Positions 8,042 to 24,457 of a DNA stretch of 64,000 nucleotides are shown one piece after another. Source of the DNA: Spirochaetaceae bacterium (GTDB lineage Bacteria; Spirochaetota; Spirochaetia; WTKD01); assembly GCA_011524535.1 (NCBI GenBank), contig WTKD01000005.1, positions 62,001 to 126,000 on the forward strand, read 5' to 3'. Under the pieces are notes generated by a model that was given only the letters and a program-made list of their open reading frames with translations, searched no databases and was not told the origin of the DNA. The translations under genes and the position numbers were made by a program. Within the stretch, counting starts at the first letter, position 1. The number at the start of each line of letters is the position of its first letter.

Positions 8042-10267
8042 GTGATGAATAAAGCTCCTAAAAAACCAGCTGCATTCCAAACAAAGCGCTTCACAATTCC
8101 GAGTATTTCTTGCGCTCACTGTGCAAAGACAATAGAACAGGAACTTGAGAAAAACCGAGCCATTCATCAGATATCCATAGATATATTACAAAAATATGTT
8201 TCGATCACTTATGACCCATCCCTACCCTTACAAAATATTATCGATACACTGAAAAGAATCGGATACCCTTCAAAAAAAGTCGATGAAACAAACCAATCCC
8301 ACTCTCGCCAAACGCTGCGGCTGCCCATAGCGCTCGGTTTATCGCTCCCCTTCATGGCGCTCATGATAATACAATACTTCACTGCTATACATATTCCTTA
8401 TTGGATACATATCCTCGAGGGTCTTGCCACCGGTATCATTCTATTTGTATTTGGAAGAGAAGTAATACGCGCTTCTTTGCGTTCCTTCCGCACAATGTCC
8501 TTTGCTATGGAATCACTCATCGGAATTGGTAGCATTACTGCCTATAGTGCTGGTTTATTGGCTTTGTTCGGGTTCAATATAGGAAACTTTTTCAGCATCT
8601 CCAGTATGATTTTGATTATCCATTTTATAGGCATGGAAATACGCACAAAATATACAAGGGCCGCCTCTCGCGGGGTTGAAGATCTTCTACAGGCTGAAAT
8701 CAGAACCGTACAACTTCTTACCAAGGATGGGGAAACAAGAGAGACCTCCCTGAGCTCTTTGAACATTGGTGATGTAGTACTTGTTAGAGCAGGAGATACA
8801 ATTCCCGTAGATGGTATCATTGTCCATGGAGATGCTTTTATAGATGAATCTATGATAAGCGGAGAACCTTTGCCCGTCAGAAAAACCATCGAACAAGAAG
8901 TCTATGGGGGAACTATTAATCAAGATGGGTTGCTCCACGTGCGTACCAACCGCCTCGGAAAAGACAGCTTCATCTCACGTATAGCCACATTGATTGAAGA
9001 AGCTCGTCTGGCGAAAATTCCAATACAAGAGCTCGTCGACAGAATTTCAGCTGTTTTTGTCCCCGTTGTGATCAGTCTCGGACTCCTATCGAGTATACTA
9101 TGGATTGTTTTTCCCAGCATTGGATTAACCCTATATGCATCACTCACCGCATGGTTTTCTTGGCTATCTCCAAATCCTAACACAATACAACAAGGGGTAA
9201 CCGCCTTTATCACCACATTGGTGATTGCCTGTCCTTGTGCCTTAGGATTAGCTACTCCGACAGCTCTGAGTGTTGGCATTGGCCTCGCCGCAAATCGTGG
9301 AATACTCATACGACATGCCGCCGCTATCCAGGAAGCAAAAAATATTACAACCTGCATATTCGATAAAACGGGCACATTGACCGAAGGAACTCCCCGCATA
9401 ACCGCGATGTATTGCATCGAAGATTCCTCGAAAACCCTTCAATTTGTCGCCTCCGTCGTATACCACTCGACCCATCCCCTGTCCCAGGCAATCGTCAGGC
9501 ACACGCAGAGCCTAAATCTATCCATCGTCCCTGCGGCAGCCCACACCATCGTATCAGGATTCGGGATACATGCGCGTATACACGAGACGGATTGGTATGT
9601 TGGGAGCTCTTCTTATATGCAAAAACTGGGCATTACAATACCCCCAGACATGTCTGCAAATATTGCGAAAGATAGCACCAGCCTTACGTACATCGCACGT
9701 GAAGATCGAATCATAGCAATATACGCCTTTCACGATACTTTGAGAGCAGAAGCAAAAGATCTCATACATGCCCTACACAAACAAGGTATAGAGACCTGTA
9801 TTCTTTCTGGAGATAATCCGACCGTAGTTGCTGCGATTGCAAAAGACCTTGGCGTCGACCAAGCCTATGGCGGCGTGTCTCCACAGGGAAAAATTGATAT
9901 GGTAAAAAAACTGCAATCTTCGGGACAAAAAATCGCGATGATTGGTGATGGCATAAACGATGGCCCCGCTTTACAACAGGCCGATATAAGTATAGCCATG
10001 AGTAAGGGTAGCAATATAGCAGTAGAACATGCCAATGTAGTACTTGTCGCCGATAACATCGCTCTGTGTGGGGAATTGATCCGCTTATCAAAACGTACAA
10101 TGTCGGCCGTGTCACAAAACCTGTTATGGGCATTTTGCTTCAATGTACTTGCCATTCCACTAGCCATGGTTGGAGCTCTCCACCCGATTGTTGCTGAATT
10201 AGCCATGGCAGCAAGCTCCATATTGGTCGTACTGAATTCACTTCGATTACGCGGTTTTTCGCGCTAA
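8042..10267 (+). CDS. copA: Heavy-metal (Cu+) translocating P1B-type ATPase
   Basis: This 741-residue pump exports monovalent copper. In order: one heavy-metal-associated domain with the metal site C24-AH-C27, eight membrane segments, the intramembrane CPC at 397-399, the phosphorylation site D441 in DKTGTLTEG, the nucleotide-domain HP in STHPLS, and GDGINDGPAL. The last helices carry AFCFN and MAASS...NSLRL; the M-x2-SS pattern of the eighth helix and the Asn of the seventh favour Cu+ over Zn/Cd, although the usual Tyr before that Asn is Phe. The first codon is GTG at 8042 with an ATG directly after it at 8045; either may be used. No copper chaperone or CueR/CsoR regulator gene is adjacent. 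Confidence 0.93.
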   Translation: MMNKAPKKPAAFQTKRFTIPSISCAHCAKTIEQELEKNRAIHQISIDILQKYVSITYDPSLPLQNIIDTLKRIGYPSKKVDETNQSHSRQTLRLPIALGLSLPFMALMIIQYFTAIHIPYWIHILEGLATGIILFVFGREVIRASLRSFRTMSFAMESLIGIGSITAYSAGLLALFGFNIGNFFSISSMILIIHFIGMEIRTKYTRAASRGVEDLLQAEIRTVQLLTKDGETRETSLSSLNIGDVVLVRAGDTIPVDGIIVHGDAFIDESMISGEPLPVRKTIEQEVYGGTINQDGLLHVRTNRLGKDSFISRIATLIEEARLAKIPIQELVDRISAVFVPVVISLGLLSSILWIVFPSIGLTLYASLTAWFSWLSPNPNTIQQGVTAFITTLVIACPCALGLATPTALSVGIGLAANRGILIRHAAAIQEAKNITTCIFDKTGTLTEGTPRITAMYCIEDSSKTLQFVASVVYHSTHPLSQAIVRHTQSLNLSIVPAAAHTIVSGFGIHARIHETDWYVGSSSYMQKLGITIPPDMSANIAKDSTSLTYIAREDRIIAIYAFHDTLRAEAKDLIHALHKQGIETCILSGDNPTVVAAIAKDLGVDQAYGGVSPQGKIDMVKKLQSSGQKIAMIGDGINDGPALQQADISIAMSKGSNIAVEHANVVLVADNIALCGELIRLSKRTMSAVSQNLLWAFCFNVLAIPLAMVGALHPIVAELAMAASSILVVLNSLRLRGFSR

Positions 10268-10342: not shown

Positions 10343-12034
10343 ATGATCTTAGAGATTCTCAAAACACATAGCACCAGGATGTATAAAACATTGACAGAGT
10401 TATCAAGCCCCTCTATCGTTCAGATAAAGGAAACTATGAAATCAATATTACAATCGAATTTAAACAAAAAAAATATAGATGTTCCACAGGTTTTGCAAGA
10501 ACCAGCTAGCACGAATATGGCAGTAGAATATACCCAGACCAAGGTCGCAGAGGATATTGCAGTACTAACCCCAAACATTTCTAGCGAAACTGTTTACAAA
10601 TTTGTAAGTGGAGGGGGAGGCGATTTTTCCTCAAAAATCGGTGTTTTGTTTTCGGGCGGACAAGCTCCAGGGGGCCACAATGTTATTTCCGGATTATTCG
10701 ATGCACTTGGACAAAACACGAAACAAGGGGTCCTTATCGGCTTCCTCAACGGTCCATCCGGATTGGTCAATAACGAATACACTCTCATCACCCGGGAGCA
10801 TATCGATGCATATAAAAACACCGGGGGCTTTGATCTCATTGGCTCTGGTAGGACAAAAATAGAGACCAAGGAACAATTTCAACAATCGCTTGAAACCGCA
10901 AAAGAGCATAGCCTAGATACCCTCGTCATCATTGGTGGTGATGACAGCAACACGAATGCTGCGTTGCTTGCGAATTATTTCAAACAACACAAACAGCCTA
11001 CTACGGTAATCGGAGTCCCAAAAACCATCGATGGTGATTTAAAAAACACATTCGTCGAAACCTCTTTTGGCTTTGATACCGCCACACGAGTATACAGCAA
11101 TTTGATCAGCAATATAGCGCGCGATGCACTGAGTGCAAAAAAATATTGGCATTTTATAAAACTTATGGGCAGAAGTGCGAGTCATGTTACCCTTGAATGC
11201 GCCCTGCAAACGCAGCCAAATGTGACCATAATTGCTGAGGAAGTGGCCGAACGATCCCAATCTCTTGCCGAATTGGTTGAATCCATCGCTGATACAGTAA
11301 TAAAAAGACATAAAACAGGCCTCAATTTTGGAATAGCCTTGCTTCCAGAGGGGTTGCTCGAATTCATACCAGAAATGAAAACGCTCATTTCAGAAATAAA
11401 CGAACTCCTTGCCAGCAATATTTCGCTGGAAGAGCTCCCAAAACAACTAACACCTCCATCGCATAATCTTTTTACAATAATACCCGAAGCTATCCGAGCC
11501 CAACTACTACTCGACCGAGACCCCCATGGAAATGTAAACGTCTCATTGATCGAAACAGATAAACTCATCGCACATATGGTGGATGAATACATCAAGAACA
11601 ACCATACAACTGTTCCCTTCTCCTATCATTGCCATTTTCTCGGCTACGAAGGCCGTGCTGCATTTCCTTCCGCATTTGATGCGAGCTATTGTTATTGTTT
11701 GGGTAAAACCGCCTATCTTGCTGGAACCCAAAAGCTCAGTGGATATATGGTAACAATCATGGATACCACCAAGCCAATTCAGGACTGGGTTCCCCTGGCA
11801 ATCCCCATTGCAAGCCTCATGCATCTTGAAAAACGACATGGCCATATGAAACCGGTGATAGAAAAAGCTCTCGTTGAGTTAGATCAGCCTGCATTCAAGC
11901 ATTTTGAAATGCACAGGAATAGCTGGAAATCTCACAATAATTATGTCTTTACCGGCCCCATACAATACTTTGGTCCCAATGACATCGTGTGGCGCTGCAC
12001 CCACACACTCCACCTTGAAAAGTCTACAAAATAA
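10343..12034 (+). CDS. pfp: Pyrophosphate-dependent 6-phosphofructokinase (long type)
   Basis: This enzyme phosphorylates fructose 6-phosphate with pyrophosphate, reversibly, in glycolysis. GGDDS at 198-202 has the extra Asp that blocks ATP and marks PPi use. PKTIDGDLKN at 226-235 carries the catalytic Asp and the Lys typical of PPi enzymes. At 563 residues it belongs to the long plant-beta-like group found in spirochaetes. The N-terminal extension of roughly 90 residues before the GGGGDFSSKIGVLFSGG core contains a second possible start at 10379. Neither start has a good Shine-Dalgarno site. It follows copA by 75 bases without an obvious functional link. Confidence 0.93.
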   Translation: MILEILKTHSTRMYKTLTELSSPSIVQIKETMKSILQSNLNKKNIDVPQVLQEPASTNMAVEYTQTKVAEDIAVLTPNISSETVYKFVSGGGGDFSSKIGVLFSGGQAPGGHNVISGLFDALGQNTKQGVLIGFLNGPSGLVNNEYTLITREHIDAYKNTGGFDLIGSGRTKIETKEQFQQSLETAKEHSLDTLVIIGGDDSNTNAALLANYFKQHKQPTTVIGVPKTIDGDLKNTFVETSFGFDTATRVYSNLISNIARDALSAKKYWHFIKLMGRSASHVTLECALQTQPNVTIIAEEVAERSQSLAELVESIADTVIKRHKTGLNFGIALLPEGLLEFIPEMKTLISEINELLASNISLEELPKQLTPPSHNLFTIIPEAIRAQLLLDRDPHGNVNVSLIETDKLIAHMVDEYIKNNHTTVPFSYHCHFLGYEGRAAFPSAFDASYCYCLGKTAYLAGTQKLSGYMVTIMDTTKPIQDWVPLAIPIASLMHLEKRHGHMKPVIEKALVELDQPAFKHFEMHRNSWKSHNNYVFTGPIQYFGPNDIVWRCTHTLHLEKSTK

Positions 12035-12850: not shown

Positions 12851-12892
12851 GTAAACAAGAGACATACTTTTTTAAGTATGTCTCTTGTTTAC
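12851..12892. terminator. 19-bp perfect inverted repeat, bidirectional terminator
   Basis: Arms 12851-12869 and 12874-12892 are exact reverse complements separated by a TTTT loop. It sits between two convergent genes; its right half encodes the last codons and stop of the dppC-like gene. There is no long T tract after either arm, but a hairpin of this length should still halt or stabilise both mRNAs. Confidence 0.7.
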
Positions 12893-13657
12893 ATATAGAA
12901 TAATCGATACCAGGAATAACAAAAGCAATGGGAAATAGAGCATGCTTGGCTGTGCCTCATTGTATCGCCTCGCTTCGTAAATCATAAACCCCAAACTAGG
13001 TGTTGGTGGCTGTATCCCTATCCCAAAAAATGACAAAGAAGATTCAATATGTATGGAAACCAATATAGTTTGAATCGTAAGAGGACGCATACTCGGCAGA
13101 ACATTGGGTAGATAATGTATTGTAAAGAGATCAAATCGATTGCAACCCACCGACAGCGCCGAATTTATATACTCCTCTGTTTGTATCCGTAATGATTCCA
13201 TTAGGCCTAAACGAACAAAATAAGGCAAGGCGATAAACATCAGAACGATGGCAATAGAAACAATACTCTGCGATATAAATAGAGCTATGATTAGAGCAAA
13301 GAAAATACCTGGAATGGTAATGAGCGTATCGCATATCACGAGCATTCCTAATGCGATCGATTTCGAAATAAATACGACACATGAAATCCCTAAAACCGTC
13401 CCTAATAATGCAGTTACTCCGCCTGCAACCAGGGCGATACTCAGGCTATTCCTCAATCCAAACAAAGATCTAAAAAATATGTCTCGCCCAAATGCGTCCG
13501 TTCCCAAAACATTTTTTGAAGAGATCGGAGCAAGCGCATTTGTAAGATCGGTTGTATTTATGCGTGACTCAAATTCTGGAAAAACGAAGACCAGAACAAA
13601 TAGGGTCAATCCAAATAGAACATAAATACTAGTTCTTAACTGTTTTCCTGAAATCAT
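12872..13657 (-). CDS. dppC: Dipeptide/oligopeptide ABC transporter permease (DppC/OppC family)
   Basis: This inner-membrane permease has about six hydrophobic segments. The N-terminal part has the LGTDAFGRDIFFRSLFGLRNSL segment typical of DppC/OppC. The EAA-like loop is around SALSVGCNRFDLFTIHYLPN, and the C-terminus has the IESSLSFFGIGIQPPTPSLG signature. I chose ATG at 13657 (261 residues), which has GGAAA upstream; an in-frame start at 13687 would add ten residues. The gene overlaps the end of the binding-protein gene by about 29 bases. Last gene of the seven-gene unit; its final codons form half of the terminator palindrome. No ATPase gene (DppD/F) is present here, so it must be supplied elsewhere. 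Confidence 0.9.
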   Translation of the reverse strand: MISGKQLRTSIYVLFGLTLFVLVFVFPEFESRINTTDLTNALAPISSKNVLGTDAFGRDIFFRSLFGLRNSLSIALVAGGVTALLGTVLGISCVVFISKSIALGMLVICDTLITIPGIFFALIIALFISQSIVSIAIVLMFIALPYFVRLGLMESLRIQTEEYINSALSVGCNRFDLFTIHYLPNVLPSMRPLTIQTILVSIHIESSLSFFGIGIQPPTPSLGFMIYEARRYNEAQPSMLYFPLLLLFLVSIILYVNKRHT

Positions 13658-15128
13658 AGGTTTCCAGTTGAGGTTGGAATATAACATGTTTCACGTCATC
13701 GCGAAGCGCAATATACCTGTTCGGTGTTCCTACATACACAAAGGGTAGTTCATCCTTCATACGCTGTAGAATTTCGGTATAATATTTTTTCCTCATCTCT
13801 ACATCGGTAGTCTGTTGTCCCTGTATGATTAAGTTTCCTACTTCGGAATTCCCCCATTGCACATAATTGTCTTCGCTTCCAAATATGGAAAGACGTGCAT
13901 CGGGGTCTAACTTGCCCGTATGTCCAATAACGGTAAATTCAAAATCCTTTCCGCGGTACACCGAGTCTAACCATCGGCTCCATTCATAAAATTCAAGTCG
14001 AACCGGAAGCCCAGCCATACTCAATACTTCATGATATAGTTGTGCAGCCGATACGTGTGGCTCAAAATTCTGCGGAGCAATGATACGAAGCTCATCTTCC
14101 TCGGCATATTGAGAAAGAATACATTGCGCTTCATCTGCCGATACAACGGAGTCTGCTTCCACTAATGAATCTGGATAAAAAGAGCTTCCAATATCCATAA
14201 ATGTTTCTATTGGAGATCCACCTCCATACGCAGAGCGCAAAATCATTTCTTTTTCAATCAAAGCATTAACGGCTCGGCGTACTTCCAGTTGCGACAATAT
14301 GGGATGCTTTGTATTCATCGCAAGAACGAGGACCAATGCGGTCGGCTCAACTTTGACTACCACCCCTTCACTATTTTGTAAAATAGATAACTCGGGTTCA
14401 ACGATCAAATCAACTCCATCAACATCGCCTCGAATTAATGCCTGTGACTGCATAGAAGGATCAGTGATAAACACAAAGTGTATCCCATCCAATTTTGGAT
14501 TGTCTCCCAGTGTGTATTGTTGATTCGCCACCATGCTCACTTGCTGTCTCTCCTCCCATCCTTCAAACACAAATGGTCCCGTGCCAACGGGTTCGAGAGA
14601 AAAATTATGGTCACGGTCTATCAAATCCTTGGGAAGAATAGCTGACCAGCCGGAAGCAAGAACGGTCAAGATAGGAGAATATTGTTCTCGAAGATTGAAA
14701 CGAACTATATGCTCATCCTCTTTTGTTATACTCTCGAGAGATCTAAAATCAGCAACATGCGGACTATCTTCTCCCTGCTCTAATATCCGTTCAAATGTTG
14801 CGATCACATCATCCGCTGTAAATTGCTTGCCATGATGAAAATATACGTCATCGCGTAACTCAAATTGGATACTAAGTCCATCATCTTCAAACGTCCAGCT
14901 CTTTGCAAGAGCTGGGATCAGTTCTCCACTTGCTGTAGGCTCAAGCAATGTATCATATAGAGAACGTGTAATTTGAAATGTCAATGTTCCTGTTGTTTTT
15001 TGCGGATCCAAGGTATCGGGTTCGCCAGAAATGACAAAATTTAGATAATTAGATTCTGCCCCCCCCATAGAGAAAAGCATAGTCACCCGAAAAATAATAG
15101 CAATACAAATAAGACCAATTTTCACCAT
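13629..15128 (-). CDS. dppA: Peptide ABC transporter substrate-binding protein (family 5)
   Basis: This 499-residue periplasmic protein begins with a hydrophobic signal segment (about 4-20, no lipobox cysteine, so probably soluble). The start of the mature protein (residues 31-52) has the SGEPDTLDPQKTTGT pattern of family 5 solute-binding proteins. The following region contains the usual LYDTLLEP and LAKSWTFEDDGL motifs, and GTGPFVFEGWE appears mid-protein. Relatives bind di- or oligopeptides or nickel. It sits between the two permease genes, in order dppB-dppA-dppC. Linkage to an aspartate/glutamate racemase gene suggests peptides containing D-residues as one possible ligand, which is inference. 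Confidence 0.9.
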   Translation of the reverse strand: MVKIGLICIAIIFRVTMLFSMGGAESNYLNFVISGEPDTLDPQKTTGTLTFQITRSLYDTLLEPTASGELIPALAKSWTFEDDGLSIQFELRDDVYFHHGKQFTADDVIATFERILEQGEDSPHVADFRSLESITKEDEHIVRFNLREQYSPILTVLASGWSAILPKDLIDRDHNFSLEPVGTGPFVFEGWEERQQVSMVANQQYTLGDNPKLDGIHFVFITDPSMQSQALIRGDVDGVDLIVEPELSILQNSEGVVVKVEPTALVLVLAMNTKHPILSQLEVRRAVNALIEKEMILRSAYGGGSPIETFMDIGSSFYPDSLVEADSVVSADEAQCILSQYAEEDELRIIAPQNFEPHVSAAQLYHEVLSMAGLPVRLEFYEWSRWLDSVYRGKDFEFTVIGHTGKLDPDARLSIFGSEDNYVQWGNSEVGNLIIQGQQTTDVEMRKKYYTEILQRMKDELPFVYVGTPNRYIALRDDVKHVIFQPQLETYDFRKTVKN

Positions 15129-15160
15129 TTTTTACCTCTGCATAAATCTGAGTATATTCA

Positions 15161-16039
15161 TCACAATATTGTTATTTTACCTGAGAGCAAGCGCCTAGAG
15201 ATATACATACATGCGTTTAGCTGAAATAACATCAAACTTATTGCAATCCCGGAGCTCGCCTGAATCATTGGGATATCTTTTGTAATCACCGAATCCACAA
15301 ATAGGCTCCCAACCCCAGGAATGGAGAATATGCGTTCCAGTACGGCACTAACTCCAAATAGAATACTAATCACTGCGCCAAAATAGACGATCGTGTTTGG
15401 CAATATGTTCGGTAATATATGGCCAAAAACTACCCTTCTTCGGCTAGCTCCAAACGATAAAGAAGTTCTTACATAATCCTTGTTGTATTCTTCCCGTACT
15501 TTCTGGTCAATCATTTGAAATAACAATCCTCCCCCTATCAAGGACATAGAAAGAAAAGGAACAAGAGAACGAACAAAAATATTCGGCGACCAAACGGGAA
15601 GAACATTGAGGACATCGGAAAAAAAATAAGCCAACAATAAAGCCAAGACAAAACGAGGAGGCGCCAATGAAAGTACCGAAACAATTGAAGCAAGTCGTTG
15701 TAGGTTTAAAAATAAAAAGCACAGCAGAGTAGCGCCTCCCACTCCGAGGAGTATAAACACGATAGATTGCCTAGTTGCGGGAAACAGCACATCAGAAATA
15801 TCTCTTCCGGTGTACACAGAGGGGGAAAAGTCGAAGGTAACTATCGCTCGCATCCATTGCATATAAGATTCAAACACAGAAACTTCTATTGATTCTGATT
15901 CTTCCGTCGAAGTTACCGTTAATCCCCTGAGTAATTGATTCGCATTGCCTGGAAGTATCTGCACACAAAGAAAAATAACACTCGTCGCGATATACAAAGA
16001 AAGAAGAAATTGTAGCAAACTTTCAATCAACAGTTTCAT
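15161..16039 (-). CDS. dppB: Dipeptide/oligopeptide ABC transporter permease (DppB/OppB family)
   Basis: This inner-membrane protein of about 292 residues has six predicted membrane segments. The first helix is followed by VQILPGNANQLLRG. The EAA loop is RTSLSFGASRRRVVFGHILPN, and the conserved end of the fold is ERIFSIPGVGSLFVDSVITKDIP. The start at 16039 (MKLLIESLL) is preferred; an upstream in-frame ATG at 16066 adds nine residues. Either start overlaps the 3' end of the racemase gene, which suggests translational coupling. The loop after the first helix is shorter than in DppB of enteric bacteria. Confidence 0.9.
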   Translation of the reverse strand: MKLLIESLLQFLLSLYIATSVIFLCVQILPGNANQLLRGLTVTSTEESESIEVSVFESYMQWMRAIVTFDFSPSVYTGRDISDVLFPATRQSIVFILLGVGGATLLCFLFLNLQRLASIVSVLSLAPPRFVLALLLAYFFSDVLNVLPVWSPNIFVRSLVPFLSMSLIGGGLLFQMIDQKVREEYNKDYVRTSLSFGASRRRVVFGHILPNILPNTIVYFGAVISILFGVSAVLERIFSIPGVGSLFVDSVITKDIPMIQASSGIAISLMLFQLNACMYISRRLLSGKITIL

Positions 16040-16769
16040 AGGCCTTGAATACCAACTTAGTAGCAAGTATCACAAGAGGGTCAAAACATGGAACCGAAAT
16101 ATTCAAACTAGATTGAACCAAGGAGATTTCTGTACACCCAAGTATGATAGCTTGTGCACCATTAGCAATGAGGGTTTCTGCAGTCCCTTGAAGAATATCG
16201 ATCGCCCGAGATCGTATAGACTGTGAAAATGTTTTGATACCGTATTCTGGGTTATAAATAGAGCTATGTACTAAATTGCGTTCTTCTTCTGTTTCTGGCG
16301 ATAAAATATGTTGTGCTCGCTTCTTTCCATGCAACCCGTATACATTGCTTGTATAGGTTCCCTTGGTTGCTAGAAGTCCAATAGTAGTGATTGTGGCATC
16401 GGTTGCGTATATCTCAGCTAGCGTTTCATCCACCATATGCACGAAATCCAATCCGCGTGCGTCCATGTCAGAAGAAATCATCGATAATATGTCGGGAGAA
16501 TGAGCCGTATTACAAGGAATTCCCACTATACGGCATCTTGCGTTCGCAAGAATATCTACCGCGGTTTTTAGCGCTTTTTCTGGGCTTTTTTCATCTCGCG
16601 GGTCCAGCAAATACTCTGTACGATCTGGAATTGAAGAAGCATTGTACAACAACAGCTCAGGATAATCCTGATCGCTACGCGCTCTGATGCTCGCTATGTC
16701 GAGGATATGTTCGAACAATGCCTTTCCTGCATAAGGGCCAACCCCTCCTATGATACCTATTTTGCTCAT
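16023..16769 (-). CDS. Aspartate/glutamate racemase family protein
   Basis: The 248-residue protein belongs to the cofactor-independent Asp/Glu racemase superfamily, which inverts the alpha carbon with two cysteines. Both are visible: GIPCNTAH and ILGCTEI. The N-terminal GIIGGVGPYAG is typical of aspartate racemases rather than MurI. It begins one base after the stop of the symporter-cyclase fusion and overlaps dppB at its end. It may convert imported D-Asp/D-Glu to the L-forms or supply D-residues to the wall. MurI cannot be excluded from sequence alone, but the GVGP start argues for RacX/aspartate racemase. Confidence 0.88.
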   Translation of the reverse strand: MSKIGIIGGVGPYAGKALFEHILDIASIRARSDQDYPELLLYNASSIPDRTEYLLDPRDEKSPEKALKTAVDILANARCRIVGIPCNTAHSPDILSMISSDMDARGLDFVHMVDETLAEIYATDATITTIGLLATKGTYTSNVYGLHGKKRAQHILSPETEEERNLVHSSIYNPEYGIKTFSQSIRSRAIDILQGTAETLIANGAQAIILGCTEISLVQSSLNISVPCFDPLVILATKLVFKAYETVD

Positions 16770-16770
16770 A

Positions 16771-19700
16771 CTATTTGGAAAAGAGTTGCGTCACTTCGCT
16801 CTCTTTAGAATTTCCCCCATCCCGATACAGCCGATAACTCTTTTCGTACAGTTTTCGCGTTGGAAGATCATCCGGAATAAGTTTGAGAGCATTAGCAAAA
16901 TTGTGCACCGCCTTGCCCCAGTTCTTTCTTTTAAAGAAATATACCGCTTCTTGATAATAGAACAAAAACCTTTTCTCTATATCGTGTGAATACTTTGAAA
17001 CGGGCCACAAGGATATGTCGTCTCTTTCTTTCAAAATTTCATACACCGATGTAACTTCGCTTTTTCCTTTGACCATTACATGATCCACAAACCGATACAC
17101 AATAGAATCATCTAATTGCTTCATTGTTTCTTCGCTAATAAGGATAGATGTGCCATAGAATTTATTTAAAGACTCGAGCCGACTCGCTAGGTTTACCCCA
17201 TCCCCCAAGGCTGTATAATTCAACCGTTGGTCAGATCCAACATTACCAACCAACACAACCCCGCTGTGTATACCTATTCGCGTTTTCTGAAAATCATTCG
17301 GAGGCAAATCATATAATCCTCGACTACACCGAATGGCAGCTCGACAGGCCCGTAATGCATGATCATCGATCTTCCATGGAGCACCCCAAAAAGCCATAAC
17401 CGCATCACCGATATATTTATCAATCGTACCCTGTTCGTTCATGATACAGGTGCTGAGGATATTGAAGTATTCTTTCAACTGTTCTAGTAATATTTCAGGT
17501 TTTGTCACTTCACTCAGCTGGGTGAAATTCTGAATATCTGAAAAAAACAGTGTGATATTCATCTTCTCAGCGCCAATCGTTGCAGCTTTATTGATCCTCA
17601 ACAGTTCCCTCACCACCTCGGTGGGAAGATACCGACTAAATGAATCCAATCCTTGCTTCAACGTACCCATTATTTTGTCGATGTTATTCACTTCGCTAAT
17701 ATTGGAACGTATGCCCAATCTGTGATCTATTTTCAGCTTGCTCATGTCACGCATTTCATCAGACAAAAATTCCAATGGCAGAGTGAGCCTACTAACAAGC
17801 ATGCTCGTAAGAACAGCAATAATAATAAAAATCAATACTGTTACCATGAATTGAAGGATAACCCCGCGCGTTGCAATTTCCAACAAAGGTCCTTCAGGAA
17901 TGACCATACCAATCTTCCAATCAAAACTTTCTGAAAATTGAGCATCAACCTGTATTCCGTAATAATACCTGTTTTGGAGTGTGAATCTAGAGAAATCGCC
18001 TAGATCGGTTGGTTCTGCATTGCTACTCACCCCACTTATTTGACGACTCAGGGTTTGCAATATATCGCTGGAGAGCAATCTACTAAGAAATTCAGATTGA
18101 CCAGTCCTCTGTGTGTCCAAATTATTAAACGAGTCAAAAGATGCACGAACCAAACTATCTGGGCTATCAACCGTTCGATAGCGAATAGGATCGAAGGTCT
18201 CTGATTCTTCGTTTTGATAGTAGAGACGAGCTCCTGCTTCTGTTGAATCGCTAGAAATCGCTATCAATTCATTGGATTCCCTTTCAAAAATGTATATCAA
18301 TGCTTGCGCCTGTGTTGCAACGCTCAATTCTGACAAAAATACAGAAAAATCTCCCAGATCAACATCGATTCCAATCACCCCTATCAAATTTCCATCGTCA
18401 TCATAGAATGGATGGGCATATGTAGCCCCTATAACATCGCTGGAAGCAAAAACATACACATTCGTCCAGGCTGGTCCTTGTTTTTCAGCCGCGCGGATAT
18501 ACCATGGACGCAATCGAGGATCATAGGGATCAGCAACAATTCTATCTACCGTCAATAGCGGATCGCTATCAAAGATATACACTTCACGCACATCATTTCC
18601 CTCTAACGTAAAACGTCTGCGCCGTAATCCTTCACCCTGAATTTCTCGACCTACTAGTAAAAATTCTCCATTCTGAAGTCCAAGAAACACTGATGCGATA
18701 GTGTCGTTTTTCTCAATAATTGTATCGCTAAAAATACTTTCAAGTTCATCAAAACTATCAATGTCCACATATTCTGAATCGAAGAGAAGCTCTATAGTAG
18801 TAATCGATGATTTTGCTTGACTAAAATAATCTTCTATTCTTCGCTCGATATGCCTCAGGTTCTCATCCATTATGACATTTGTGACCCCTTGCATCGAAAC
18901 CCTTGTTCCAGAATAGTTCACAATTGTGGTAACAACGCCATACCCGGCAAGCATCACCAACATGAGTAATAATACGCTTATACGAAAAGGAATACTTGTA
19001 ATATTCTCACTTTTATTGGCTTTAAAACGTATTCTTTTGTGTTTCTTTTTTACTTCTGTGCCGAATAGGTCTTCCTTATCGTCTTCGCTCTGCCGCGCAT
19101 GACCCGGCGAAAGTTCTTCTTGATCCAAAGCAGTATCATCTTGCACATCAAGAAGAGCTTTTTCTTCTGGAATCTCTGCTTTACTTGTTTCTTTCGATAA
19201 TTCCATCACTGCATCGTATGCAGGCTGTGACCTAATAGATACAGAAATCAATAAAGAAGAAAGGACTGAAACCACCCTTCCAAACGGGACAAGAATACTA
19301 GCCAGGGCTACTAATGGCACTTGCAAAAATATCCCCAATTGATCGGTATTATAAATCAACTCCTTATCGAGAGAATTAAGAAGTTGTTCAAACGATAGAA
19401 ACAGGGCATTTTGTCCCAAACTGAATATTTGCTGTAGTGTTTCCCAGATTGTCAAATCGATGTTGTATATTTCCAGACTGGTTAAGACTGTGAATACAAT
19501 AATGGCAAAGAATCCCAGGTTCAGGGGTATAATTAGTGAAAAAAATAGTTTGACAGCGGCTCTTCGCCTTGGATGAGGATTAAGAAGATGTACGACTTCT
19601 GGAAAGGCAATCACATTTGATCCACCAAAAAAGCTAAGCGAAATAATTCTAAACACACCTCCAGCCGTTTTGCCGGTAGATATACCATCATTTCGTGCAA

Positions 19701-20478
19701 TAATTGTGATAAGGGCTACGAATAGAATCCCAATAATTGCGCCAAATATGAGTACATAACGTGGGATGAGAAATGAAAATGGGATTTCTGTCGCGGTCAT
19801 TTGTACTACTATACTCGCAACCGAAGGTACCAAAATTATTGGCAACACCGACAAAATCACTCGGTATATTTTTTCTAGCGCAGATGATAATCCGTCGCTC
19901 AGATCCACAAAATAGTTCGTCTCTTTTTTCGACAATATAACGAACACAATCCCCAGAAGGATGGACATGAAAACTATACCGTATAGTTCTCCCGTATAGA
20001 TCGCCGAAAAAAGGTTTTCAGGTATGACGGTTCGTATGATATCGAAAATTAATCCATTCGGACCCCAGACTGTTGTAGAAGTACTGCTTGTCGCACTGTA
20101 AATGGTTGTTTCTTTGTCGAAAGAATCGTTTGAACTGTAAAGCTCAGAACGTTGGCTTTCGCTTAAAGGATTTGAAGAACTAATACCTTGATGTCCAAGA
20201 AAAATTGCACCAACCAATAAAAGTAATATCCCAAAGCCTAAAAAGAGGAGCCATATAATTTTTCGTAATACCTTAAAATCTCCAGCTAACTTGGTTATCG
20301 TGACTATGAGCGAGAGAAAAACAATAGGAACGGCAATTGCAATAAGTAATTCATAATACAGTCCTATGATTTCTTGAAGGACGAGAAAAATATTCGATTG
20401 TACGCCTAGACCCAAGAACACCCCCGCGATAACCGCAATAGGTATACTGAAAAGGTTCTGGAGAATTTTTCGAATCAT
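16771..20478 (-). CDS. Symporter-like membrane domain fused to dCache sensor and class III adenylate cyclase
   Basis: A single 1235-residue chain. Residues 1-415 form a dicarboxylate/amino-acid:cation symporter (SDF) fold. Residues 420-490 are an acidic then basic linker. A membrane helix lies at about 498-520. A periplasmic dCache domain at about 525-860 has Y652, R657, W659, Y660 and D705, the spacing of the amino-acid-binding dCache motif. Then come a helix (872-895), a HAMP-like segment, and a class III cyclase at 970-1150. The cyclase keeps metal Asp981 and Asp1025, Lys1021 and Thr1089 for adenine, and Asn1096/Arg1100. A short TPR-like tail ends at 1235. The symporter part has lost most canonical site residues (NMDGT is NLGFF), so it may sense rather than transport. 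It is third in the unit, three bases after the binding-protein gene. Confidence 0.9.
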   Translation of the reverse strand: MIRKILQNLFSIPIAVIAGVFLGLGVQSNIFLVLQEIIGLYYELLIAIAVPIVFLSLIVTITKLAGDFKVLRKIIWLLFLGFGILLLLVGAIFLGHQGISSSNPLSESQRSELYSSNDSFDKETTIYSATSSTSTTVWGPNGLIFDIIRTVIPENLFSAIYTGELYGIVFMSILLGIVFVILSKKETNYFVDLSDGLSSALEKIYRVILSVLPIILVPSVASIVVQMTATEIPFSFLIPRYVLIFGAIIGILFVALITIIARNDGISTGKTAGGVFRIISLSFFGGSNVIAFPEVVHLLNPHPRRRAAVKLFFSLIIPLNLGFFAIIVFTVLTSLEIYNIDLTIWETLQQIFSLGQNALFLSFEQLLNSLDKELIYNTDQLGIFLQVPLVALASILVPFGRVVSVLSSLLISVSIRSQPAYDAVMELSKETSKAEIPEEKALLDVQDDTALDQEELSPGHARQSEDDKEDLFGTEVKKKHKRIRFKANKSENITSIPFRISVLLLMLVMLAGYGVVTTIVNYSGTRVSMQGVTNVIMDENLRHIERRIEDYFSQAKSSITTIELLFDSEYVDIDSFDELESIFSDTIIEKNDTIASVFLGLQNGEFLLVGREIQGEGLRRRRFTLEGNDVREVYIFDSDPLLTVDRIVADPYDPRLRPWYIRAAEKQGPAWTNVYVFASSDVIGATYAHPFYDDDGNLIGVIGIDVDLGDFSVFLSELSVATQAQALIYIFERESNELIAISSDSTEAGARLYYQNEESETFDPIRYRTVDSPDSLVRASFDSFNNLDTQRTGQSEFLSRLLSSDILQTLSRQISGVSSNAEPTDLGDFSRFTLQNRYYYGIQVDAQFSESFDWKIGMVIPEGPLLEIATRGVILQFMVTVLIFIIIAVLTSMLVSRLTLPLEFLSDEMRDMSKLKIDHRLGIRSNISEVNNIDKIMGTLKQGLDSFSRYLPTEVVRELLRINKAATIGAEKMNITLFFSDIQNFTQLSEVTKPEILLEQLKEYFNILSTCIMNEQGTIDKYIGDAVMAFWGAPWKIDDHALRACRAAIRCSRGLYDLPPNDFQKTRIGIHSGVVLVGNVGSDQRLNYTALGDGVNLASRLESLNKFYGTSILISEETMKQLDDSIVYRFVDHVMVKGKSEVTSVYEILKERDDISLWPVSKYSHDIEKRFLFYYQEAVYFFKRKNWGKAVHNFANALKLIPDDLPTRKLYEKSYRLYRDGGNSKESEVTQLFSK

Positions 20479-20481
20479 TCT

Positions 20482-21297
20482 TTATTCGATAGCAGCCAAT
20501 TCAAATTGATTCAACAATTTATCAACCGTCAGATTTAGATTTTGAGACTCCAAATATATATTCACCCATTTTGCAAACTGACTACTTTCCCAAGGCAAAG
20601 CCATCGCAATAGGATCGCGTGTATCTTTCAACAATACCGTCTTCACATTCAATGCGGAATCGGGCCTTGATTTTATTACTTTTTTTATTTCAAGTTCATC
20701 GCGATAGGCAGCAAGGATTTCTCCTGAAAACACCGCCTCAACAACCGCATCCCATGTCGGATACTCAACCAATGTTGCACTTGGAAAGTTAATACCCGCA
20801 AACACTGCGTAGGAAGAATTCGCTACAACTCCAAGACTTCCTGTAAATTGCCGAACAAAAGAATCAACTTCATCATCCCGAACTTTTTCGGCTAGTAGCA
20901 ATCGGTTGACCATCAAGGCTTGCCGGAGCACTATGTATGGCTCGCTATACTGCACCAGTTGAGCTCGTGTGCTCGTTCGGCTCAATTTTGAAATAACAAT
21001 ATCAGCATCACCGTTTGCGACAATAGTTACCAAATCATTAAATGACTGTGCATTACGATTGAATTCCAGATCAACCCCTAGCCCATCTGCGATTCCACGG
21101 GCTAGTTCCACATCAATCCCTGCCCAATTTCCTTCGTTATCCCTGAAAAAAAATGGAACTTGTTCTCGAGGGAGCTGAGCAACCACCAGTGACCCTCGTT
21201 CGCGTATACGGGTTATGTCTGGTGCGTATTCCTGCGCCGACAATACCGTTCCAAAAAGTAAAAATATAACAACAGAATAAATCAATGTTTTCATCAC
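20482..21297 (-). CDS. Periplasmic amino-acid-binding protein (SBP family 3)
   Basis: The 271-residue product has a signal peptide (about 1-21, cleavage near LSA-Q) and a family 3 fold. It shows the ERGSLVVA start, FFFRDNEGNWAGIDVELARGIAD, the GDADIVISKLSRTSTRAQLVQYSEPY ligand-site region, and the DPIAMAL segment. Such proteins normally feed polar amino-acid ABC transporters, but no ABC permease or ATPase of that type is adjacent. It lies between a symporter gene and the symporter-cyclase gene. The start may be GTG at 21297, eight bases after GGAG, or ATG at 21294; both overlap the stop of the symporter gene. A role in presenting ligand to its neighbours is inference. Confidence 0.9.
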   Translation of the reverse strand: MMKTLIYSVVIFLLFGTVLSAQEYAPDITRIRERGSLVVAQLPREQVPFFFRDNEGNWAGIDVELARGIADGLGVDLEFNRNAQSFNDLVTIVANGDADIVISKLSRTSTRAQLVQYSEPYIVLRQALMVNRLLLAEKVRDDEVDSFVRQFTGSLGVVANSSYAVFAGINFPSATLVEYPTWDAVVEAVFSGEILAAYRDELEIKKVIKSRPDSALNVKTVLLKDTRDPIAMALPWESSQFAKWVNIYLESQNLNLTVDKLLNQFELAAIE

Positions 21298-22613
21298 TGT
21301 ACAGTCTCCGTACTTTTGGTAAAATTTTGCAGAGCATCACTTACATTTTTCTTGCGCTTACTTGTCGAAATTGGTGATACCAATGTAGTAAACATAATGT
21401 TTGTATGAACAATAAGTAAACTTCTCATTGGATCAACAATTGGATCGATGGCAAATAGAATTAATAACAGCGTTTCCGTTGGCAGCCCGAGACCTCTGAC
21501 CGCAATTGCAATCATACTCAGCGTGGCAAATCCCGTTGCTCCAGCGGTTCCAATTCCTGCAGCAACAGCGGTCACTATCAACAATAAAATTTGCGGAATT
21601 TCCAATGAAATACCATATAGCTGCGCCCCAAAAACTCCAGCAAGAGCAAAGTACAACACGTTTCCATACCTTCCCAACGTTATACACAAGGGAAAAACAA
21701 ATTTTGTCGTTAATCGCTCAGAATTAAGCCCCTCCGTTAGGGTTTCCAGCGAGGCAGGAATTGCTGCAATACTGCTTCTCGTTGAGAATGCAACAAAGAT
21801 AGGGCTCAAACAAGCCTTCAGCACCTTCACGATAGATAACCTTGAACGCACCGAGATGATTACGGTATTAACAACAATGAGAAGTAGACCCAGTCCATAG
21901 AATGAAATAATTAGTTTGATTGATGCCAACAAGGCTGTAATCCCCGTAGACTTAACTTGCTCTGCAACAAGCACAAACAAACCAATGGGTAGCAAATACA
22001 TGGTCCAAGCGATGATCTTGTTAAATGACAGATATATCCCTGTGCTGAGACTAATAATGTAATCGCTTTGCTCTTTCTTTATATAGGCGATAGCAATACC
22101 AAACAAAATAGCAAAAAACACAATTCTCAGTATTTCAGAATTAACAAGAGAAGCAAAAATATTCTTTGGAATGAGTTCTTGGAGGAAAATCAGCACCCCC
22201 TCTTCAGTATTGACAGGTTCATCATCTGCATCGGCATCAAGGCTTACGCCATAATCTGTTTCGACGCTAGAAGATTCGACTATCTGCCCTAGAATATTTC
22301 TCTGATCTTGCTCTACCACTCCTGGTCCAGTCACTGTCCCGGTAAACACACCAAGTGTACTGGTCGCAAATAATGTGAGGAATAGAAATACAGTAAATTT
22401 CCAGAGTACCCTTTGAGTAACCGAAGGAGATCGTATCAGCTCAGCTATACTCGAAAGAATTGCAGTCAATACAATTGGAACCACACACATCTGGAGCAAG
22501 GCAACATATACTGTGCCAATGGGAGCCACGTACGAAACAATTCCATCGCCCGCAAATATGCCAAATACTATCCCACCAACTATTGATAAAAGAATTAACC
22601 AAGGGTTTTTCAT
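21294..22613 (-). CDS. Dicarboxylate/amino acid:cation symporter (DAACS/SDF family)
   Basis: An inner-membrane symporter of about 439 residues with eight helices and two re-entrant hairpins. HP1 keeps TRSS in FSTRSSIAAIPASLE. Helix 8 keeps D and R in AIDPIVDPMRS, equivalents of the substrate-binding D394 and R397 of GltPh. Helix 7 differs: the canonical NMDGT is RYGNV, so the cation sites must be altered. An acidic extracellular insert (QIVESSSVETDYGVSLDADADD) lies between helices 3 and 4, as in the neighbouring fusion protein, suggesting both arose by duplication. The ATG at 22613 has GGGAG eight bases upstream. First gene of the seven-gene unit. Confidence 0.9.
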   Translation of the reverse strand: MKNPWLILLSIVGGIVFGIFAGDGIVSYVAPIGTVYVALLQMCVVPIVLTAILSSIAELIRSPSVTQRVLWKFTVFLFLTLFATSTLGVFTGTVTGPGVVEQDQRNILGQIVESSSVETDYGVSLDADADDEPVNTEEGVLIFLQELIPKNIFASLVNSEILRIVFFAILFGIAIAYIKKEQSDYIISLSTGIYLSFNKIIAWTMYLLPIGLFVLVAEQVKSTGITALLASIKLIISFYGLGLLLIVVNTVIISVRSRLSIVKVLKACLSPIFVAFSTRSSIAAIPASLETLTEGLNSERLTTKFVFPLCITLGRYGNVLYFALAGVFGAQLYGISLEIPQILLLIVTAVAAGIGTAGATGFATLSMIAIAVRGLGLPTETLLLILFAIDPIVDPMRSLLIVHTNIMFTTLVSPISTSKRKKNVSDALQNFTKSTETVQ

Positions 22614-22699
22614 GATATTATCTCCCAAATACAATAACTTACCAACATTTATTAGATACCGTTATCATCCTTCGTTATATATAATAACTTTTTTGCTAT

Positions 22700-22728
22700 A
22701 TTATACAAGCGACCACATTTCTTATCAA
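22700..22728 (-). promoter_or_regulatory. Consensus promoter of the symporter-cyclase-peptide transport unit
   Basis: On the minus strand TTGATA (22728-22723) and TATAAT (22705-22700) are 17 bases apart, and TTG lies just before the -10. The predicted 5' leader is about 80 bases. No other equally good promoter appears before the six downstream genes. Confidence 0.75.
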
Positions 22729-22912: not shown

Positions 22913-22960
22913 CAAAGAATTAGTCAACTATTTTTGGAGTTATTTGAAATTTTTTTTATT

Positions 22961-24457
22961 ATGGACTTATTTAGTTTAAAAAAAAAGATTGTTGTTGTGT
23001 TGGGATTGGGTCTTCATGGGGGTGGCATATCTGCAGCAAAATTTTGTTCAAAAGCCGGGGCACATGTTATTGTTACCGACAAAAAAGATGCCAAAACATT
23101 AAGGAATAGCATTGAAGCATTGAAAGGATATCCTATCACATTTGTACTCGGTGAACATCGAAAGAAGGATATAGAAGAAGCGGACATCGTATTAAAGAAT
23201 CCCGCCATACCCGCGCAATCGCACATATTAACATGGGCGAATTGGATAGAAACCGATATTTCGCTTTTTTTACGAACAAAAAAAGACTGGCAACAGCATT
23301 GGGGTATTACCGGCAGCAAAGGAAAATCGACGACAACTGCTTTGCTTGGGCATGTAGCCCAACAATGCCTCTCTTCTTCTGTAGGGATCGCTGGAAATAT
23401 AGGTGTCTCCCCTCTATCCAGTGCCTCGCAAAAACTACATACTCTTGTTCTAGAACTTTCATCATTTCAGTTAGGCGATCTAAAAAGAGTCTGTGAACAA
23501 CAAAGCGTAAAAAAAAGCCCATTTGGGGAAAAACTGATTCCAGAATTCTCACAGGCATTCCTTACCAATATCTATCCGGATCATCAAAACCGCTATAACA
23601 GTTTCGAAAGCTATGTGGCCGATAAAATGGCTCTATTTGAATTTCAAAATCCAAACGATCAAGCGTATATCGCAGAGCAAGCCCTCCCATTCATTCCGCC
23701 GGTTGCTGCTCGCCTCCATACCATAGGTTCGAACGACCAACACCATCCAGAACCTAGAGTACAAAGCATCATACAAAATAGTCATTCACAGACCCGAATC
23801 CATAGCGATTCCATCACCATCCAGGATAATGCAGGTTCTCACATAATCCCATTTTCAAAAATCCCCATGATACCGAGTATCCCAAATCTATACGCGGTAA
23901 GTTTTTGTATACAAAGTATGCTCCAGAATGAGGTTGAACTGAATGCAATTCTCGAAGCATTACATTCATTCAAGGGATTGCCTCATCGCATGCAATACCT
24001 AGGCTCGTTTCACGGAACAACAATTTTCAACGATAATGCTGCAACCATCCCCCAGGCAACTCAAGCTTCTCTGAGTCAATTTAATCCAACAAGCAATCCC
24101 CATTCCGCCGCTTCACCCGTAGTGCTTATACTTGGGGGCGCCGATAAAAACCTCGACCTATCCCCACTAGAAACAATAGCAAAAAACGTATCTGCCATCT
24201 TTCTCGTACCTGGTAACGCCAGTGAACGATTCAAACAATATCTCATGGGTATAGGGTATCAAAACCTACATTCTTCATACAAAACATTTGAAGAAGCCTG
24301 CATCGCTGCCTTGAAAGCTGCTCACACAATGCCATCCTCTGTTCTTCTTTGCTCTCCTGGGGCAACATCTTTTGCTGAATTTGATCATGAGTTCCAAAGA
24401 GGTGATGCATTTGTTACATGCGTCCATCGCTTTTTTGGTATCAACCAACAGCATTAA
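22961..24457 (+). CDS. murD: UDP-N-acetylmuramoylalanine--D-glutamate ligase
   Basis: MurD adds D-glutamate to UDP-MurNAc-L-Ala in the cytoplasm. The product has the N-terminal Rossmann segment VVVLGLGLHGGG, the ATP loop GITGSKGKST (115-124), the LELSSFQL segment, the central NIYPDHQNRY motif, the third-domain KGLPHRMQYLG and the C-terminal LLCSPGATSFAEFDHEFQRGDAF. I chose ATG at 22961 (498 residues); a TTG at 22934 would add nine hydrophobic residues. The ribosome site GGAG lies 21 bases before this ATG, which is far, so the TTG start remains possible. It is longer than E. coli MurD, partly from an insert around residues 165-185. Confidence 0.93.
   Translation: MDLFSLKKKIVVVLGLGLHGGGISAAKFCSKAGAHVIVTDKKDAKTLRNSIEALKGYPITFVLGEHRKKDIEEADIVLKNPAIPAQSHILTWANWIETDISLFLRTKKDWQQHWGITGSKGKSTTTALLGHVAQQCLSSSVGIAGNIGVSPLSSASQKLHTLVLELSSFQLGDLKRVCEQQSVKKSPFGEKLIPEFSQAFLTNIYPDHQNRYNSFESYVADKMALFEFQNPNDQAYIAEQALPFIPPVAARLHTIGSNDQHHPEPRVQSIIQNSHSQTRIHSDSITIQDNAGSHIIPFSKIPMIPSIPNLYAVSFCIQSMLQNEVELNAILEALHSFKGLPHRMQYLGSFHGTTIFNDNAATIPQATQASLSQFNPTSNPHSAASPVVLILGGADKNLDLSPLETIAKNVSAIFLVPGNASERFKQYLMGIGYQNLHSSYKTFEEACIAALKAAHTMPSSVLLCSPGATSFAEFDHEFQRGDAFVTCVHRFFGINQQH

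Follow-up and report, generated by a model that had tools for sequence, protein, structure and literature searches.

The question raised by the gene at positions 16771-20478 (minus strand) of a 64,000-nucleotide stretch of Spirochaetaceae bacterium DNA (contig WTKD01000005.1, positions 62,001 to 126,000; this whole stretch is called the window, and coordinates refer to it) is why a membrane domain with the glutamate-transporter fold (SDF) should stand in one chain with a periplasmic dCache sensor and an adenylate cyclase. We favour, with a probability of about 0.55, the reading that the protein is a transporter-coupled receptor adenylate cyclase with the SDF as a built-in co-sensor. A transporter has apparently been recruited into a cyclic AMP (cAMP) receptor. 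An earlier note on this DNA had proposed a transceptor, in which an amino acid in the periplasm, and possibly in a dead transporter, sets cAMP output; the domain order, the dead or near-dead core, the amino-acid dCache motif and the cyclase residues were retained from that proposal, and it was sharpened to a receptor cyclase with an SDF co-sensor.

The gene consisted of one uninterrupted open reading frame of 1235 codons (1235 aa), as had been claimed. The order along the chain, read from the sequence, was SDF, linker, transmembrane (TM) helix, periplasmic dCache, TM helix and class III cyclase. Pfam analysis confirmed the three domains proposed earlier, all over the curated cut-offs: SDF (PF00375) matched aa 10-352 with 60.3 bits (cut-off 27.9), dCache_1 matched aa 555-777 with 49 bits (cut-off 45), and Guanylate_cyc (PF00211) matched aa 972-1144 with 83 bits. 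MCP-like_PDC_1 also matched over its cut-off (49.8 bits). HAMP, which the earlier note had listed beside these domains, was below Pfam significance in the window protein. The degenerate SDF domain spanned aa 1-430 (19189-20478, minus strand) and was followed by a charged, low-confidence linker of aa 431-495 (18994-19188, minus strand), which was predicted to be cytoplasmic; the predicted local distance difference test (pLDDT) score was below 50 over aa 347-494, and a variable linker was present here in the Treponema fusions too. The AlphaFold model of the fusion covered aa 1-935. In the Foldseek search with this model, the amino-acid dCache domains of Mlp24, Tlp3 and PctA were matched with E values of 3e-8 to 1e-6 and GltTk with E 5.9e-6. 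The C-terminal helical tail (aa 1161-1235; 16774-16998, minus strand) looked tetratricopeptide-repeat-like by eye, had no Pfam match, and was helical in the model of a Treponema relative; in that full-length AlphaFold model the cyclase part was not usable.

The class III cyclase catalytic domain (aa 972-1144; 17047-17565, minus strand) carried every catalytic residue assigned to it in the earlier note: sequence inspection and a motif scan showed the metal-binding Asp pair D981/D1025, the adenine selectors K1021/T1089, and the transition-state pair N1096/R1100. Lys and Thr at the selector positions of class III cyclases indicate ATP as the substrate; the full class III residue set of an adenylate cyclase is supported for the fusion. 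The nearest solved relative of the domain was P. aeruginosa CyaB (3r5g, E 3e-28). Because the source genome held three further cyclase domains (four with the fusion) and five domains that bind cyclic nucleoside monophosphates (cNMP), a cAMP circuit is plausible.

The TM helix and periplasmic dCache domain (PF02743/PF22673) covered aa 496-865 (17884-18993, minus strand). The motif Y652-x4-R657-x-W659-Y660 with D705 was found as described before (aa 652-705; 18364-18525, minus strand); profile score, motif and fold all agreed with the amino-acid dCache_1 receptors. Y675 of the fusion sits where we take Y144 of PctA to be. In the amino-acid dCache motif the Arg (R126 in PctA) contacts the carboxylate of the ligand (PMC10104139). 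The Y-x4-R-x-W-Y part was detected by motif scan in nearly all dCache partners of the related loci.

The fused SDF was compared with the free SDF encoded in the same gene run (446 aa; 21294-22634, minus strand; PF00375 255 bits). The latter belongs to a group in which the NMDGT motif is replaced by one ending in R-[FY]-G-N (RxGN). The free SDF scored 429 bits against the RxGN-SDF profile over its full length and 173 bits against the canonical NMDGT profile; the fused SDF scored 76.9 and 27.5 bits. On this profile comparison, the fused SDF was not favoured as a canonical GltP-like transporter. In the fused SDF, NMDGT had become NLGFF, as the earlier note had stated, and the RxGN motif itself, which is present in the free SDF, was absent. 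The signatures of hairpins HP1 and HP2 and of helices TM7 and TM8 were all lacking in the fused SDF and all present in the free SDF. The substrate-site residues (R276/S278, D394, R397 and T398 of GltPh, numbered according to established knowledge and PMC12668577) were found in the free SDF and in the relatives. They were not found in the fused SDF, where HP1 read GGSN, one Arg was possible (R401), and TM8 could not be aligned by profile. The earlier claim that only an Arg remains in helix 8 was plausible (VPFGR, R401), but the profile alignment of the fused SDF stopped at about aa 350. The loss of NMDGT, which the earlier note had described for the fused copy, was real but common to the whole RxGN subfamily; the HP1 and helix-8 losses were the window copy's own. 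A dead or near-dead transport core is supported by these losses, which speak against transport in the same chain; the relatives retain most substrate residues. Since the SDF encoded upstream is full-length and conserved, the fused SDF was regarded as a second, degenerate paralogue. Apparently, the duplicated SDF in this organism lost transport and kept just a signalling or tethering role.

A single-sequence scan of genome contigs with the window protein gave no relatives; these came to light only with a profile built from the SDF part, and full-length queries in relatives were dominated by unrelated cyclases. When the phylum was searched with the SDF part, fused frames of 1211-1217 aa turned up in four genomes and separate parts in two. 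Where the contig was long enough, the gene order of the relatives was solute-binding protein (SBP), SDF-dCache-adenylate cyclase, racemase, or SBP, SDF, dCache-adenylate cyclase, racemase. The profile scan of named genomes gave 80 loci, about 23 of them with the fusion (mostly rumen Treponema, with one termite-gut spirochaete, L078), and in 12 of the 80 a separate dCache-cyclase lay near the SDF in the same cluster. Class-level searches added more cases (L132, L178 and L179). The output beside the SBP-SDF genes was exchanged among adenylate cyclase, chemoreceptor and SpoIIE phosphatase, which argues for the co-sensor reading. In L071, L074 and L077, a dCache chemoreceptor (methyl-accepting chemotaxis protein, MCP) was encoded directly upstream of SBP, SDF and racemase; in L089 (Desulfobacteraceae), a dCache-HAMP-SpoIIE phosphatase occupied this position. 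In L088 the HAMP-SpoIIE part was visible and the sensor part was lost at the contig end. In L068 neither SBP nor cyclase was visible beside the SDF.

A single clade of fused cyclases was refuted (approximately unbiased (AU) test, p = 9e-56; at least two changes), with the window copy left out as a long branch, and one ancestral fusion for the relatives was rejected accordingly. As the fused cyclases did not form one clade, the fusion occurred more than once. The termite-gut spirochaete L078 is an independent case, and the fusion in the window may be a third event. The SDF-dCache-cyclase architecture is a module that recurs in spirochaetes and was fused at least twice, probably three times. The earlier note had described the fusion in this one protein; the fusion was real, and the module is spread across spirochaetes, fused or as neighbouring genes, together with a type-3 SBP and in most cases an Asp/Glu racemase. 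Two further observations were made on these loci. In termite-gut Treponema, the SDFs of L071, L072, L077 and L085 ran on for about 130-210 aa at the C-terminal end, and this extra part weakly matched a portion of SBP_bac_3; it is possibly half an SBP fused to the SDF. Two tandem type-3 SBP-like genes preceded the SDF at L179:4982-6611, L180:2-1574 and L182:3588-5352.

According to the co-sensor reading, a periplasmic acidic or related amino acid would bind the dCache domain and, via the SBP, the SDF. As a co-sensor, the SDF would adjust the gain or the specificity with which the dCache-cyclase responds, just as DctA acts on the Cache-type kinase DcuS; the cyclase would alter cAMP, and the cNMP-binding proteins of the genome would read it. 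In the relatives, a single SDF may handle transport as well as co-sensing. The window organism seems to have divided these tasks: its free SDF retains the transporter residues, and the fused SDF keeps a recognisable N-terminal half, no longer has the substrate and ion site, and is probably just a regulatory or tethering module, which perhaps joins SDF oligomers to form a mixed oligomer. We infer the ligand, the direction of signalling, the loss of transport by the fused copy and any mixed oligomer.

The same erosion of the transport core would fit a plainer explanation, that the SDF part is a mere membrane anchor or relic and the protein an ordinary dCache receptor cyclase, the fusion of co-transcribed genes having brought no coupling. 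Related loci indeed hold separate dCache-cyclases without an SDF part. We consider this explanation rather unlikely, since the fusion arose at least twice and was kept in about 23 records, the membrane domain of about 430 residues is still open and recognisable as SDF despite strong divergence, and dCache receptors of three output types adjoin SBP-SDF genes in unfused loci as well.

Several points weigh against the co-sensor reading itself. The fused SDF was alignable only over aa 1 to about 350, and its branch was saturated in the tree, so that descent from the neighbouring SDF was not readable from it. Of the conserved positions, the fused SDF kept 23/53 in TM1, TM2, TM4 and TM5 and 18/78 in the transport core (p = 0.02), a bias that the free SDF did not show; however, the contrast between scaffold and transport positions was not significant on the reliably alignable part alone (p = 0.14), and retention of only the scaffold in the fused SDF is suggestive at best. 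The AlphaFold model of the fusion was of low confidence (pLDDT 62). The amino-acid dCache motif is widespread, and the ligand is not fixed by it. Some RxGN SDFs had no nearby dCache partner (e.g., L070, L090 and L091), so SDF-SBP can act without dCache output. Finally, adjacency and fusion show functional linkage and not the direction of signalling.

Analysis of the RxGN SDFs revealed an Ile or similar residue at the N401 equivalent of GltPh and an Asn at the D405 equivalent; the HP1 Arg/Ser and the helix-8 Asp, Arg and Thr/Ser were retained. In the non-spirochaete members L088-L090 the Arg of helix 8 was missing, and the TM7 motif ended differently in two of the three. Among loci with enough flank, 30 of 33 RxGN SDF genes and 0 of 31 NMDGT SDF genes had an SBP gene as a same-strand neighbour; since these loci are akin to one another, the p-value overstates their independence, and the SBPs were sought with a profile from this SBP group. 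In the alphaproteobacterial loci L091 and L102, the motif LRFG[NT] was present and no SBP was detected nearby, so the motif exists beyond the SBP-linked group. By motif and gene neighbourhood, the RxGN SDFs are a distinct SBP-linked SDF subfamily. The NMD motif helps coordinate all three sodium ions and the substrate (PMC12668577), and GltPh-style sodium coupling is therefore doubtful in the RxGN SDFs.

These features bear on a true transceptor, in which the SBP would hand the amino acid to the SDF (in the relatives, to the fused SDF itself), a conformational change would be the main signal, and the dCache domain would serve as a second input. The strict SBP pairing of the RxGN SDFs and the precedent of CbrA (PMC7096432) are in keeping with it, and the Treponema-type fused SDFs retain the HP1 Arg/Ser and the helix-8 Asp/Arg/Thr and fold like GltPh (E 2e-14). 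However, those residues are gone in the window copy, the sodium-site residues are absent throughout the subfamily, so that normal sodium-coupled alternating access is doubtful, and the dCache domain is already a complete sensor by itself. A true transceptor is improbable on this evidence.

The gene run around the fusion had been missed by the earlier note, which treated the fused copy alone: the intact SDF and an SBP gene lay upstream and a racemase gene downstream. The minus-strand run consisted of the free SDF, a type-3 periplasmic SBP (SBP_bac_3; 271 aa; 20482-21297; PF00497 71.8 bits; nearest solved relatives amino-acid SBPs), the fusion, an Asp/Glu-type amino-acid racemase (248 aa; 16023-16769; PF01177 and TIGR00035 over cut-off; aspartate racemase 1jfl, E 6e-29), and, further on, a pair of Opp-like permeases flanking an SBP_bac_5 protein (12872-16066; Pfam), whose genes overlap the racemase gene by 44 nucleotides. 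The junctions among the first four genes were -4, +3 and +1 nucleotides. The racemase was the sole Pfam Asp_Glu_race match in the 96%-complete genome, and its presence suggests acidic amino acids as the ligand. A sigma-70-like promoter candidate (11/12; 22700-22728, minus strand) preceded the run as a consensus match only, promoter-like sites being not enriched over shuffles, and a terminator-like hairpin with a 19-bp stem and a T-run (12851-12892, minus strand), also a consensus-type match only, closed it.

The gene run also admits the opposite order of control: the dCache-cyclase would report an external amino acid, and cAMP would regulate expression or activity of the SBP-SDF-racemase-Opp run. 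The shared gene run and the cNMP-binding proteins of the genome suit this order, but it leaves the covalent SDF fusion and the adjacency to MCP outputs unexplained, and the cluster is without a regulator gene; we regard it as very unlikely. The chance of an assembly or frameshift artefact joining two genes is practically negligible: although conservation is poor at the SDF end and in the linker and the window comes from a single genome assembly, the frame is open, the G+C content at third codon positions shifted only modestly over the junction (0.36, 0.28, 0.34), and misassembly is strongly disfavoured because about 23 further named records, from independent assemblies, carry the fusion too.

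Other genes in and near the run were recorded. murD, the D-glutamate ligase gene (TIGR01087 303 bits), lay at 22934-24454 (plus strand), divergent from the run, and the genome had one Aminotran_4 protein; the racemase of the run might supply D-glutamate for the cell wall. No ATPase gene accompanied the Opp-like permeases and binding protein in the run; oligo_HPY-type ATPases were encoded on other contigs, so the ATPase may be shared. Next to the run, a P-type metal ATPase gene and a phosphofructokinase-like gene were recognised by eye at 8042-10267 and 10343-12034 (plus strand).

Even in DctA/DcuS and CbrA, it is not clear how a transporter informs a receptor. The present module occurs in three evolutionary states: as separate genes, as a fusion that conserves the substrate residues, and as a fusion whose dead core stands beside a live copy. 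With these states, the co-sensor idea is directly testable. If it is true, the glutamate-transporter fold joins the transporter-type receptors, and an SBP-linked subfamily without the sodium site is added to a family known chiefly as ion-coupled transporters. A wider and more tentative proposal is that SBP and RxGN SDF could form a hitherto undescribed SDF system that is independent of sodium, fed by the SBP and used in spirochaetes mainly for signalling. It would be a modular sensory front end on dCache receptors whose outputs can be exchanged (cyclase, chemoreceptor, SpoIIE phosphatase), and the window organism could have evolved a dedicated dead-transporter receptor subunit beside a working transporter.

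A description of the SDF-dCache-cyclase fusion was not found in the open-access literature searched, which is not proof of absence. The sodium-coupled transporters GltPh, GltTk and EAAT share the fold and, with the relatives and the free SDF, the HP1 Arg/Ser and helix-8 Asp/Arg/Thr(Ser); here, NMDGT is replaced by RxGN, the N401/D405 equivalents are changed, and in the fused copy of the window the substrate site is missing too. The amino-acid dCache_1 receptors PctA, Tlp3 and Mlp24 and the dCache-class III cyclases share the dCache fold, the amino-acid motif and a catalytic set like that of P. aeruginosa CyaB; to our knowledge, none of them has a transporter domain or an SBP-SDF operon. In GlnH-GlnX-PknG, a type-3 amino-acid SBP, as is found here, passes its signal through a membrane protein on to an enzyme in the cytoplasm (PMC9769921), but GlnX is a four-TM receptor with kinase output, whereas the membrane protein here is an SDF. 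The SLC5-STAC histidine kinases CbrA and CrbS, which have been called a rare transceptor (PMC13022988, PMC7096432), likewise join a secondary-transporter domain covalently to a signalling output, and CbrA, with both in one chain (PMC7096432, PMC13022988), transports histidine; they have the SLC5 fold and STAC/kinase parts, while the present protein has the SDF fold, a dCache domain ahead of a cyclase and, in the window copy, no transport residues. Like DctA with DcuS (and DctA with DctB), the present system pairs an SDF-family transporter with a receptor that has a Cache/PAS-type periplasmic domain, and DctA is a structural co-regulator of the Cache-type receptor DcuS (PMC8307970). DctA and DcuS are two proteins with histidine kinase output that respond to C4-dicarboxylates; here, one chain or operon combines a cyclase, an SBP and an amino-acid-type dCache domain. 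Fusion and operon linkage suggest that an SDF may physically control a Cache-type receptor here, as in DctA-DcuS.

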